The notes under the pieces are model-generated. The model was not told where the DNA came from and did no database searches. It saw only the letters and a program-made list of their open reading frames with translations. A program made the position numbers and the translations under genes. Below are positions 2 to 7,400 of a stretch of DNA of 47,843 bases, one piece after another (position 1 is the first letter of the stretch; each line of letters starts with the position of its first letter). This stretch comes from Actinomycetota bacterium. GTDB lineage: Bacteria; Actinomycetota; Coriobacteriia; Anaerosomatales; JAUXNU01. Where the stretch lies: positions 1 to 47,843 of the forward strand of contig JAUXNU010000134.1 of the NCBI GenBank assembly GCA_030682655.1. The letters run 5' to 3'.

Positions 2-109
2 GGCAGGAAGGTCACCGACAAGGAGATGGACTCCCTGGCCATCGAGCGCAGCGACTTCCACGGAGAATGGAACTACAGCCTCTCGCCGCGCGGCATCCCA
101 ACACGTTGA
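2..109 (+). CDS. C-terminal end of a probable ISAzo13-type transposase (partial)
   Basis: The window opens inside a reading frame that ends with TGA at 107-109. The 35 residues that can be read end in FHGEWNYSLSPR. I recall a similar His-x-Glu/Asp-Trp-Asn-Tyr tail at the end of ISAzo13-family (Rhodopirellula-type) DDE transposases. Everything upstream lies outside the window, so it cannot be said whether the element is intact. No terminal inverted repeat or target-site duplication can be recognised in the 110-220 stretch that follows. The assignment rests on a short motif only. Confidence 0.5.
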   Translation, partial: GRKVTDKEMDSLAIERSDFHGEWNYSLSPRGIPTR

Positions 110-225
110 CTCGTTCATGTTGTTATGCATAGCGTCCTTAGTGATGGGTTGGACGTAGTAGGCGGCAGAGTGGCCGAGCCGGAGCGAGTCCCCCCATTGG
201 CGACACCACCGGAATTGCAGGACGT

Positions 226-261
226 TGTCAGTTGACACCCTTCCGCATCGCGTCGTAAGGT
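226..261 (+). promoter_or_regulatory. Candidate promoter with palindromic operator ahead of the two-gene module
   Basis: A perfect TTGACA (-35) at 232-237 is followed after 18 bases by TAAGGT at 256-261, a weak -10. The -35 is the right arm of a perfect palindrome, TGTCA-GT-TGACA, at 226-237. A dyad on the -35 of a module that encodes its own helix-turn-helix protein would suit autorepression, which is inferred and not shown. Reading starts 20 bases further on at 281. Confidence 0.4.
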
Positions 262-280
262 CAAAGACGGGAAGAACCGG

Positions 281-541
281 ATGGGCAGGAAGAAGCACCC
301 GAACCCCGATATTGAGGCAGCACTGCTTCATGCCGAGGAACATGGATGGCGCATACGACCCGGTAGTGCGAGAGCACACGCGTGGGGAAAGATGTTCTGT
401 CCGCACAACAACCCGGACTGCCGATGCGGCGATTTCTGTATCACGAGTATCTACGGTACTCCCCGCAATCCAACCAACCATGCATCACACCTCAGACGAG
501 TCGTCGATAGGTGCACGGGCGTGTCCCCGGAAGATGAGTAG
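281..541 (+). CDS. Small Cys-rich protein, first gene of a two-gene module (possible HicA-like toxin)
   Basis: An 86-residue basic protein of unknown function. It begins MGRKKHPNPDIEAALLHAEE, then has Gly-Trp-Arg and a His-Ala-Trp-Gly stretch (H33), followed by a compact cysteine group C40, C47, C49, C53 (C-x6-C-x-C-x3-C) that looks able to bind a metal. The helix-then-GW-then-His layout resembles small HicA-type toxins, but HicA has no such cysteine cluster, so this is only an analogy. I recall similar proteins as conserved hypotheticals next to a helix-turn-helix gene, which is also the case here. The stop at 539-541 lies 9 bases before the next start, so the two are probably co-translated. 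A longer overlapping frame from 225 was rejected as a shadow. Confidence 0.7.
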   Translation: MGRKKHPNPDIEAALLHAEEHGWRIRPGSARAHAWGKMFCPHNNPDCRCGDFCITSIYGTPRNPTNHASHLRRVVDRCTGVSPEDE

Positions 542-550
542 GATGCAGCA

Positions 551-1129
551 GTGACCGAATACGATTTCACACTCAGATTCGATGTCTCCGGAGTCGATGC
601 AGACTCCGACGAGCGCGTCGAGCTGCTTGCCGTTCATGGATGCGATGACGCACTGATCGGCACCGGGATTCCCGGCAGGATAGCCCTGGAATTCACCCGC
701 GAGGCGCCATCTCCCGAACACGCAGTGCTCAGTGCCATCACCGACGTGAAGACAGCGCTTCCGCAGGCGACTCTCATCGAGGCAACACCAGACTTCGTGG
801 GCTACACGGAGGTCGCCGAAATCGTAGGCAAGAGCAGACAGAATATGCGGAAGCTCCTGCTTGCTCGAGGGGCAACAGGCCCGATTCCAGTCCACGAGGG
901 CCCCTCGACCATCTGGCATCTTGCGCCCGTGCTCACATGGTTGCGCGACGAGAAGCAATATGAGATCGACAGCGACTCAATCGACCTTGCGCGCACTACC
1001 ATGCACGTGAACATGGCTGCTATGCAGGTGGGTTGCGGATCGGTGATCGATGAGCGCATCACGAGACTCCTCTCCGGCACTGGGGACGTCGCTTCGAGTG
1101 GTCGGAAGGAGCGTCGCGCACGGGTATGA
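551..1129 (+). CDS. Helix-turn-helix protein, second gene of the module (possible antitoxin/regulator)
   Basis: A 192-residue protein with a GTG start. The N-terminal ~80 residues form a small alpha/beta domain (TLRFDVSG..., then GCDDALIGTG, then FTREAPSPEHAVLSAITDV). Residues about 83-110 (Tyr-Thr-Glu-Val-Ala-Glu-Ile-Val-Gly-Lys-Ser-Arg-Gln-Asn-Met-Arg) read as a MerR/AlpA-like helix-turn-helix, followed by a Trp-His-Leu stretch and a helix. The C-terminal ~60 residues are not recognisable. DNA binding is inferred from the helix-turn-helix alone. With the 86-aa gene 9 bases upstream it forms a compact bicistron sharing one promoter with a palindrome at 226-237. Such pairs are typical of toxin-antitoxin or self-regulating modules; no experimental function is known to me. 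Confidence 0.7.
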   Translation: MTEYDFTLRFDVSGVDADSDERVELLAVHGCDDALIGTGIPGRIALEFTREAPSPEHAVLSAITDVKTALPQATLIEATPDFVGYTEVAEIVGKSRQNMRKLLLARGATGPIPVHEGPSTIWHLAPVLTWLRDEKQYEIDSDSIDLARTTMHVNMAAMQVGCGSVIDERITRLLSGTGDVASSGRKERRARV

Positions 1130-3373: not shown

Positions 3374-4237
3374 ATGCTCTTTGGCGCGCACCTCTCGGTC
3401 TCAGGCGGATACGATGCGACCGTCGAGTATGCGCAGCACGTCGGCGCCGAGTGCATGCAGGTCTTCGCGAAGAGCCCGCGACAGTGGCACGGCAAGCCGA
3501 TCGACCCCGACGCGGCCGCCCGGTTCGCGGAACTCCGAGCAGAATCCGGGTTCGGGCCGCTCTTTACCCACACCGCCTACCTGCTGAACCTGGCAAGCGA
3601 CGACCCTGTTCTGTGGCATCGCTCCGTGGGTGCGCTCGCCGATGAAATGACGCGGGGGCGCCTTCTCCAGGCCTCCGGTGTCGTGCTTCACGTGGGAGCG
3701 GACCGCACTGACGACCCGGCGGCGGCGGCCGACCGCGTGGCACGCGGCATCCGCGAGGCGTTCGCGCTGTGCGACTGCACGCACCCCGAGACTCGGCTGC
3801 TTCTCGAGAACACGGCCGGAGCGGGTCACACTTTCGGAGGCTCGTTCGAGGAGATGGGGTGGGTGCTCGATCTCCTTGGCAAAGAGCGCGTGCTCGTAGG
3901 GGTATGCCTGGATACCTGTCACGCCCATGCGTACGGGCACGACCTGGCCACGCCTCTCGCGTGGGATGCGCTGCTCGCCGAGATCGAGCAGGCGTGTGGC
4001 TCGGGCGCGCTCGGCCTGATCCATGCCAACGACTGCATGTTCGAGCGCGGCTCGCACCGCGACCGGCACGCGTGGATCGGGGAGGGTACACTCGGCGAAG
4101 CCGCATTCGATGCGATGGTCTGCGCACCCGCGGCACACTCGATGTGTGTGGTCACCGAAATGCCTGGGGAAGTACCTGAGAAGGATGTCGTGAATATCGA
4201 ACGCTTGAAGGCGCTTCGGACGCGCTGTGACGCGTAA
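3374..4237 (+). CDS. nfo: Endonuclease IV (AP endonuclease, Nfo family)
   Basis: A 287-residue zinc-dependent AP endonuclease that nicks DNA 5' of abasic sites in base-excision repair. The TIM-barrel metal-ligand motifs appear in order: Phe-Thr-His-Thr-Ala-Tyr-Leu-Leu-Asn-Leu-Ala, Val-Val-Leu-His-Val-Gly, Leu-Leu-Leu-Glu-Asn-Thr-Ala-Gly, Cys-Leu-Asp-Thr-Cys-His-Ala-His-Ala, Ile-His-Ala-Asn-Asp-(x)n-Asp-Arg-His-Ala-x-Ile-Gly-Glu-Gly, and Val-Val-Thr-Glu-Met-Pro-Gly. The length is normal for the family. It is preceded by AAGGCGG about 8 bases from the ATG, and is transcribed away from dinB, giving a small DNA-repair pair. A hairpin follows the stop. Confidence 0.97.
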   Translation: MLFGAHLSVSGGYDATVEYAQHVGAECMQVFAKSPRQWHGKPIDPDAAARFAELRAESGFGPLFTHTAYLLNLASDDPVLWHRSVGALADEMTRGRLLQASGVVLHVGADRTDDPAAAADRVARGIREAFALCDCTHPETRLLLENTAGAGHTFGGSFEEMGWVLDLLGKERVLVGVCLDTCHAHAYGHDLATPLAWDALLAEIEQACGSGALGLIHANDCMFERGSHRDRHAWIGEGTLGEAAFDAMVCAPAAHSMCVVTEMPGEVPEKDVVNIERLKALRTRCDA

Positions 4238-5414: not shown

Positions 5415-7400
5415 GTGACGATCAGGCCGGCACACAACTACCCGTTTGCCGCCATTGTGGGTCAGGAGACCCTCAAGACCGCTCTTCTGCTCAATGCGAT
5501 CGACCCGCGAGTGGGTGGCGTGCTCGTGCGGGGCGAGAAGGGCACCGCGAAGTCCACTGCCGTCCGCGCCCTAGCCGACGTACTTCCCGACATAGACGTG
5601 GTGGACGAGTGCCGTTTCTCGTGCGACCCGGCTGACCCCGGATCGTGGTGTCCCGAGTGCCGCGAACGACGCGAGTCCGGCACGCTTCCCAAGGCCACGC
5701 GACAGGTTCGTGTGATCGATCTCCCCGTATCTGCGACCGAGGATCGCCTCATCGGGACACTTGACCTCGAGCACGCCCTCAAGCACGGGACGCGCATCTT
5801 CCAACCTGGCCTCCTTGCCGAGGCAAACCGCGCCATCCTTTACGTGGACGAAGTCAATCTGCTCGACGACCACCTGGTTGACACTCTGCTCGATGCTGCA
5901 GCGATGGGAGTCAACGTCGTCCAGCGCGAGGGCGTTGCGTTCGCCCATCCCGCTCGTTTCATCCTCATCGGATCGATGAATCCAGAGGAAGGAGATGTCC
6001 GCCCGCAGCTGCTGGACAGGTTCGGTCTGTGTGTCGACGTGACCGGTGTCCGCGACCCTGAAAGACGCGTTGAGATCGTGAGGCGCCGGCGCGCATTCGA
6101 AGAGGATGCGACCCAGTTCGCCCGCGACTGGGTCGACTCGCAGGAAGAGCTGCGCATGCAGCTCAAGCACGCGCGCTTGCGGCTCCCATCGGTCGAATTG
6201 CCCGACGACGTGCTGCTGGCGATCGCGAAGCTATGCGCTCAACTCGGCGTGGACGGTCACCGCGCCGATCTCGTGCTGGCGCGAGCTGCGTCGGCCTTTG
6301 CAGCGTACGAGTCACGGCCGACAGTCACGCTTGAAGATGTCCGCCATGTGGCGCCGTTCGCGCTCGCACACCGACTCAAGCGCACGCCCTTCGATGACCA
6401 TTCCGAAGGCGAGCAGCGCATGCATTCGTCGATCTCCTCGGCTTTGGGTGAGTCCGATCCCGGGGAGAAACGCGACGAACCGGATGCGGAGACTGGCAAC
6501 GGGGACGGGCTTGCGGCGGCACTGGCAGCGCTCACAGAGGCTCGCGAAGGCGACGGGGCGCCAGAGAAGGCCGTACTTCCCGGACCGGTCGACTTCACCG
6601 CGTCCCTCGATCGGGCGCGACGCTCGATTTCGGGGCGTCGACAGGAAACGGTTGCGGCGGACAGTCGCGGGCGGTACACGCGCGCGGAGCCTGCGAAGAC
6701 AGGGGCGACTACCGTCGATGTCGCGCTTGACGCTACGATTCGCGCCGCTGCGCCATATCAGGCGTCCCGTGAGGGCGAGATGGCCATCAAGATAGAGCCC
6801 CAGGACGTACACCGCAAGGTGCGCAAGCGGCGCGTTGGAGCGTCGATACTGTTCTGCGTTGACGCGAGTGGATCGATGGGCGCAGACAGCCGCATGGAGG
6901 CCGCGAAGTCCGCCATCCTGGAGCTGCTTGTCGACGCATATCAACGCCGCGACCGTGTTGGGCTCGTGTCTTTCCGCGGCGACGAAGCTCACACCGTCCT
7001 CGCGCCTACCGCAAGCGTGGAACTCGCCCAGCTCAAGATGCGCTCTCTTCCGACAGGAGGGGCCACGCCCCTCGCACACGGCATGCTTCGCGCTCTTGAC
7101 CTGATTGAGAGCGAGCGCAAGCGCGATACTGAGACGATTCCGTGGCTCGTACTCGTCACCGACGGTCGGGCCAATGTGGGCCTAAACGGCGGCCTTGGCA
7201 GCGAAGACGCGCGCGCGGTCGCTGCGAAGGTTCGCGCGTCGAAGATCCACGCTGTCGTGCTCGACACCGGTGCGGGCACCCGTGGTTCTTCAGGCGCCAA
7301 GGAGATCGCGAAGGCCGCCGGTGCGGAGTATGTCCGGCTCACCCGGCTCTCGGGCGGAGACATCGCCGAGAGCATCCGTGGTCGGGTGCACGGCACCTGA
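5415..7400 (+). CDS. Magnesium/cobalt-chelatase-like protein: BchI-type AAA ATPase fused to a BchD-type VWA domain
   Basis: A 661-residue protein in which the ATPase and integrin-like parts of a metal chelatase lie on one chain. The N-terminal AAA+ module shows Walker A Gly-Glu-Lys-Gly-Thr-Ala-Lys-Ser, a Cys group (CDPADPGSWCPEC) seen in bacterial chelatase relatives, and Walker B Tyr-Val-Asp-Glu-Val-Asn-Leu-Leu-Asp-Asp. A charged linker spans about residues 330-440. The C-terminal VWA domain has a complete MIDAS: Asp-Ala-Ser-Gly-Ser-Met-Gly, Thr-Gly-Gly-Ala-Thr-Pro, and Thr-Asp-Gly-Arg-Ala. Family members drive Mg insertion (with BchH) or Co insertion (with CobN) into tetrapyrroles. No large subunit is encoded in this window, so the metal is unknown. 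The GTG at 5415 was chosen over an upstream ATG because GGGAGGG lies 4 bases before it. The upstream region has a candidate NrdR-box pair. Confidence 0.9.
   Translation: MTIRPAHNYPFAAIVGQETLKTALLLNAIDPRVGGVLVRGEKGTAKSTAVRALADVLPDIDVVDECRFSCDPADPGSWCPECRERRESGTLPKATRQVRVIDLPVSATEDRLIGTLDLEHALKHGTRIFQPGLLAEANRAILYVDEVNLLDDHLVDTLLDAAAMGVNVVQREGVAFAHPARFILIGSMNPEEGDVRPQLLDRFGLCVDVTGVRDPERRVEIVRRRRAFEEDATQFARDWVDSQEELRMQLKHARLRLPSVELPDDVLLAIAKLCAQLGVDGHRADLVLARAASAFAAYESRPTVTLEDVRHVAPFALAHRLKRTPFDDHSEGEQRMHSSISSALGESDPGEKRDEPDAETGNGDGLAAALAALTEAREGDGAPEKAVLPGPVDFTASLDRARRSISGRRQETVAADSRGRYTRAEPAKTGATTVDVALDATIRAAAPYQASREGEMAIKIEPQDVHRKVRKRRVGASILFCVDASGSMGADSRMEAAKSAILELLVDAYQRRDRVGLVSFRGDEAHTVLAPTASVELAQLKMRSLPTGGATPLAHGMLRALDLIESERKRDTETIPWLVLVTDGRANVGLNGGLGSEDARAVAAKVRASKIHAVVLDTGAGTRGSSGAKEIAKAAGAEYVRLTRLSGGDIAESIRGRVHGT

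Follow-up and report, generated by a model that had tools for sequence, protein, structure and literature searches.

The closest described systems to the gene pair discussed here are HicAB toxin-antitoxin (TA) systems of Class 3, in which HicB possesses a C-terminal helix-turn-helix (HTH) (PMC10865869), and a homologous pair in SSU5 and Cyrano (SSU5_055/054; CYRAN_51/50), whose products are 37-38% identical to our protein A and 32-35% identical to our protein B. Cyrano is a phage-plasmid of Escherichia coli LF82, and its two homologues have been annotated as a HicA toxin and a putative HicB antitoxin and were transcribed 30- and 14-fold above the prophage background (PMC9928086). The same pair is also listed by PADLOC as PDC-M06, with both genes, their order and their length as in our locus, but this is a mere catalogue entry for a putative defence candidate, and the PDCs as a group are unvalidated (PMC12988326). 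I found no mention of PDC-M06 in the literature searched and, in what could be searched, no description of its operator, folds, decay pattern or lone N-terminal domains (NTDs). The original prediction had described the pair as possibly a new TA type, a claim that needs correcting in view of the PADLOC entry and the Cyrano annotation. In this article, I will argue that A-B is probably a type II TA module consisting of a HicA-like toxin, A, and an autoregulating antitoxin, B, with an NTD unlike that of HicB. A catalogue entry known from several phyla and from phage-plasmids of the SSU5 type, but so far untested, would thereby become a concrete hypothesis that names the toxin gene, the neutralizing domain, the regulator site and the half-site for each recognition helix; and, if this is true, the pair would combine a HicA-like toxin with an antitoxin whose domain is folded differently from HicB.

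The window, by which I mean the whole stretch of DNA analysed, comprises 47,843 nt of contig JAUXNU010000134.1 from an Actinomycetota bacterium, and the module is located at the extreme start of this contig (Table 1). Read directly, gene A is an ATG open reading frame encoding 86 aa and gene B a GTG frame encoding 192 aa, separated by 9 nt, and these sizes, the gap, the Cys spacing, the palindrome and the TTGACA hexamer are all as first described. The adjacent genes match PDC-M06A and PDC-M06B, both nearly full-length; Pfam and NCBIfam hold no family for either protein, and a PDB sequence search with A and B returned nothing useful. Protein A was introduced as an 86-aa basic protein and does have that length, but its basic character is weak (net charge about +2, His not counted). 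Similarly, of the TTGACA promoter that had been proposed, the -35-like hexamer does lie within the palindrome (232-237, overlapped by the operator, whose perfect core TGTCA-GT-TGACA spans 226-237), but the -10 is poor (TAAGGT at 256-261) and a promoter scan of the window region found no promoter.

Table 1. Features of the A-B module and its upstream flank in the window.
Feature	Position	Strand	Evidence
Transposase gene 3' end, ISAzo13-family	2..106	+	PF07592 DDE_Tnp_ISAZ013 match, E 7e-6
Operator type T1, GTTGTCA-GT-TGACACC	224..239	.	Pattern conserved across loci, none in flanks
Gene A, PDC-M06A family, predicted HicA-like toxin	281..541	+	Profile E 1.1e-38, fold, HicA register, conservation
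Gene B, PDC-M06B family, predicted antitoxin/autoregulator	551..1129	+	Profile E 1.9e-65, AF2 pLDDT 88 overall
B NTD, ferredoxin-like, predicted toxin-neutralizing part	551..787	+	AF2; kept with every intact A; alone in phage contigs
B winged HTH, SRQNMRK recognition-helix type	797..949	+	AF2; type pairs with operator T1

The transposase end reported close by is recovered as the PF07592 match, which covers the end of the profile (280-308 of 308) at a bit score slightly below the cut-off. Window bases 1-141 have a second copy with 100% identity on contig C100 of the same genome, placing an insertion sequence (IS) end approximately 83 bp upstream of the operator, and this copy may also be the source of the contig break beside the module. 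The GC content of the module (58-60%, versus roughly 64-69% for most neighbouring genes) is consistent with acquisition, and the mobile context that had been suspected agrees both with this IS end and with the carriage of the pair by plasmids of cyanobacteria and of alpha-, beta- and gammaproteobacteria and by phage-plasmids of the SSU5 family.

The two families were expected to co-occur elsewhere if they form a module, and clearly they do. Among 396 genomes of the window's phylum, A is present in 13, B in 12 and both in 11 (0.4 expected), with the two genes adjacent in 11 of the 13 A-positive genomes and always in the order A then B; among 398 genomes of Pseudomonadota, the phylum to which the Lysobacter locus L003 belongs, 26 carry B and 22 carry A, and all 22 have B directly downstream of A (about 1.4 expected by chance). 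Furthermore, across 49 loci the distances among A proteins correlate with those among B proteins (r 0.74, a value reached by 0 of 2000 permutations), so adjacency in two phyla and the distance correlation both speak for a two-gene module that is inherited together. Judged on this linkage and co-inheritance, A and B appear to be the co-inherited gene pair in one operon by which type II TA systems are recognized. Among 99 neighbouring genes, none recurred as a conserved third member of the module, the surroundings being variable. Degenerate scans from broad alignments gave nothing, since no stretch is conserved enough; scans from close trios worked.

The HicA-like outline ascribed to A is backed by its predicted structure, an alpha-beta-beta-beta-alpha order (AF2 pLDDT 80), and by a fold search in the viral library BFVD, where the functionally named entries within the top 12 were all HicA (two HicA-named matches had prob 0.96-0.97 and E 0.07-0.09). 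A Foldseek search of A against the PDB gave noise only, with no significant match and no HicA among the 50 matches listed, and the HicA family profile PF07927 did not match A at E<=1. Alignment by hhalign with a profile of 17 HicA sequences remained sub-threshold (12-30%, E 0.0024-0.0006), its best register laying helix-GW-strand-GSH of HicA on helix-GW-strand-H33 of A and beating reversed controls. H33, T60, P61 and A68 are invariant in 51 A sequences; in this weak profile match H33 is aligned with the catalytic His of the HicA GSH motif, and in the A protein of locus L140 the position reads literally RGSH. A sister A family (L148:9293-9993; L208, Malisha gp50/gp49; L209, Mao1 gp40/gp39) has no His in place of His33, and it is paired with other small proteins, about 100 aa long, in which the strand-helix pattern of the B NTD may recur. 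Gordonia phages encode a relative at greater distance, annotated as a HicA-like toxin, which has a different small partner and is without the His.

For B, the AF2 model predicts a ferredoxin-like beta-alpha-beta-beta-alpha-beta domain at residues 1-79 (pLDDT 91-97; invariants F6, G30, C31, D33, A34, F48, R50, A58 and A62), whose PDB fold matches are weak and mostly ferredoxin-like domains, followed by a winged HTH at residues 83-133 and further helices; the helix-turn-helix itself falls at residues 85-104, near the middle of the protein where it had been seen in the sequence. The likeness to HicAB Class 3 would extend to the toxin-antitoxin gene order, a small alpha-beta-beta-beta-alpha toxin and a two-domain antitoxin with a C-terminal HTH and operon control via a palindrome, all as predicted for A-B. 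However, neither protein has a Pfam HicA or HicB match, the modelled NTD differs from the beta-beta-beta-alpha-beta partial RNase H fold that defines HicB, and the S-T-P motif and C40/C-H53/C78 of A are foreign to HicA. By analogy, A-B may work like HicAB Class 3, but I do not claim membership in HicAB, because two defining features were looked for and not seen and A matched nothing but noise among PDB folds.

The operator came from an unprompted palindrome search upstream of A, which returned the same motif in most loci, and the window copy had been picked out independently in the original prediction. It exists as T1 (GTTGTCA-NN-TGACAAC) and T2 (GTTGACA-NN-TGTCAAC), lies mostly 38-57 nt before A and crosses phyla. 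Allowing one mismatch at most, 28 of the 48 loci carry it, whereas dinucleotide shuffles lead one to expect 0.01; the motif was derived from these very loci, so that the count is not blind. Some loci have no recognizable operator. Operator type matches HTH type in 35 of 35 clear cases, an agreement to which the relatedness of the loci contributes: T1 loci mostly have the RQ(N/A/Y)(M/I)RK...WHL type and T2 loci the G.RG..FP.P...LWDW type. The window has a T1 operator and a T1-type domain, locus L022 combines a T1 operator with a divergent DNA-binding domain, and the SSU5/Cyrano pair has the same operator architecture but differs from the window in its T2 operator and T2-type HTH. That B binds the palindrome at its own promoter, as had been suggested, is in keeping with this conservation and pairing, and on such comparisons B likely autoregulates via 224-239.

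Decay of the pair is one-sided. In eight loci (L018, L021, L041, L139, L145, L163, L165 and L169) B is intact but the A next to it carries a frameshift, is interrupted or has been deleted, and L144 likewise has no visible A; in L024, L146 and L147 an intact A stands beside a B that keeps the NTD but lost or lacks the HTH. An intact A beside a broken or lost NTD was not found among the loci compared, and 8 versus 0 has a p of about 0.008 if either of two parts of equal length were free to break, although some of the A breaks seen in draft genomes might be sequencing errors. Locus L018 is plasmid pAQ7 of Picosynechococcus PCC 7002, with A frameshifted at ~5729-5963 and B intact; assembly noise can be dismissed as the cause of this break, because the plasmid sequence is finished and A is uninterrupted in its sisters from PCC 73109 and 8807. 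A single E. coli plasmid clade (L027) has lost A jointly with residues 1-19 of B but retains the HTH. A comparison of 272 B with 214 A plasmid records was rejected as a measure of independent decay, much of the difference being this one clade.

What I infer from these observations is a toxin, its chemistry, two binding events and a trigger. A would most likely be an RNA-cutting toxin using the invariant His33; the ferredoxin-like NTD of B would bind and silence it; and the winged HTH of B, as a dimer, would bind the palindrome and shut the promoter whose -35 lies within it. If B were lost or overwhelmed, by plasmid loss or phage infection, A would be freed. Counting against this reading are the sub-threshold HicA homology, the His-less sister family, the loci without an operator, the naming of B relatives in PHROG and the L027 clade.

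Now considering phages themselves, the NTD also occurs alone, without an HTH, in five kinds of viral contig (L124; L125/126; L128/129/132; L130; L131), around base 4000 of each in L124, L125, L128 and L131. These lone NTDs retain the invariant residues, no A was found near them in the contig records examined, which may be fragments, and no operator lies upstream, as expected for proteins that have no HTH. In L130 (IMGVR_UViG_3300038393_001263) at 3780-4225, the lone NTD gene has a 4-bp overlap with a gene whose product is of the Acb2/Tad1 family (PF24729, E 1.6e-19), the members of which are phage sponges that counter defences based on signalling. Some viruses thus seem to carry the presumed antidote half alone, possibly for counter-defence, and the lone NTDs would make a counter-defence test simple. 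They also count in favour of the suggestion that the selected job of the pair is anti-phage abortive infection, in which a phage inactivates B and A stops growth; because it uses TA chemistry and not another chemistry, it overlaps the TA module preferred here. The PADLOC listing and a scatter of defence neighbours (such as GajB, PDC-M07, HEC-01 and HmaC) point the same way, but PDCs are unvalidated (PMC12988326), most neighbours are ordinary genes, and the pair is carried by plasmids and phage-plasmids, for which addiction would be reason enough, so that I hold this role only tentatively. The fuller scenario of a phage-triggered TA defence, countered by phages that carry the NTD alone as an antidote, I consider somewhat doubtful.

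The PHROG result raises another possibility, namely that A-B is a regulatory pair of mobile elements without any toxin, in which B would be a regulator of the AlpA/excisionase type and A either a small co-regulator or an inhibitor of B. Most of B is covered by a match (E 5e-17) to PHROG 2620, 'excisionase and transcriptional regulator', A falling in a family of unknown function, and a winged HTH of the AlpA type behind what looks like a strong autoregulatory operator would suit such a role. However, the function name of PHROG 2620 comes from annotation only, and neither an integrase nor a target gene is a constant companion of the chromosomal and plasmid loci; no further operator copy turned up in about 796 kb of flanking sequence, so no second regulated promoter is seen; and decay hits A and not the NTD, which persists in places without any HTH. 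I therefore regard this alternative as unlikely and the TA module as the better account of the pair.

The metal-type Cys cluster that had been taken as a mark of the small protein (C40-x6-C47-x-C49-x3-C53 in the window) turns out to be a subclade trait and was rejected as a family hallmark, since C47 and C49 sit in an insertion restricted to one subclade, which the SSU5/Cyrano pair does not have, and L141/L142 are without these Cys. That A is a Cys metal-binding nucleic-acid protein unrelated to HicA, such as a zinc-ribbon, is suggested by the conservation of C40, C/H53 and C78 in 47, 49 and 49 of 51 sequences and their joint replacement in L141/L142, but in these two loci H33 and the remainder of A persist although all of these Cys are gone, and the predicted element order is alpha-beta-beta-beta-alpha, with HicA proteins as the named fold neighbours, making this very unlikely. 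A losable metal site in A is possible.

Two further loci are worth recording. In the Pseudomonadota genome G589 (L170), two copies of B lie 10 kb apart and A was found beside one only. In Klebsiella aerogenes NCTC10006, the pair (L025:4728-5546) lies between a yfcH-like gene and the acetyltransferase/hisP side, an apparent chromosomal insertion.
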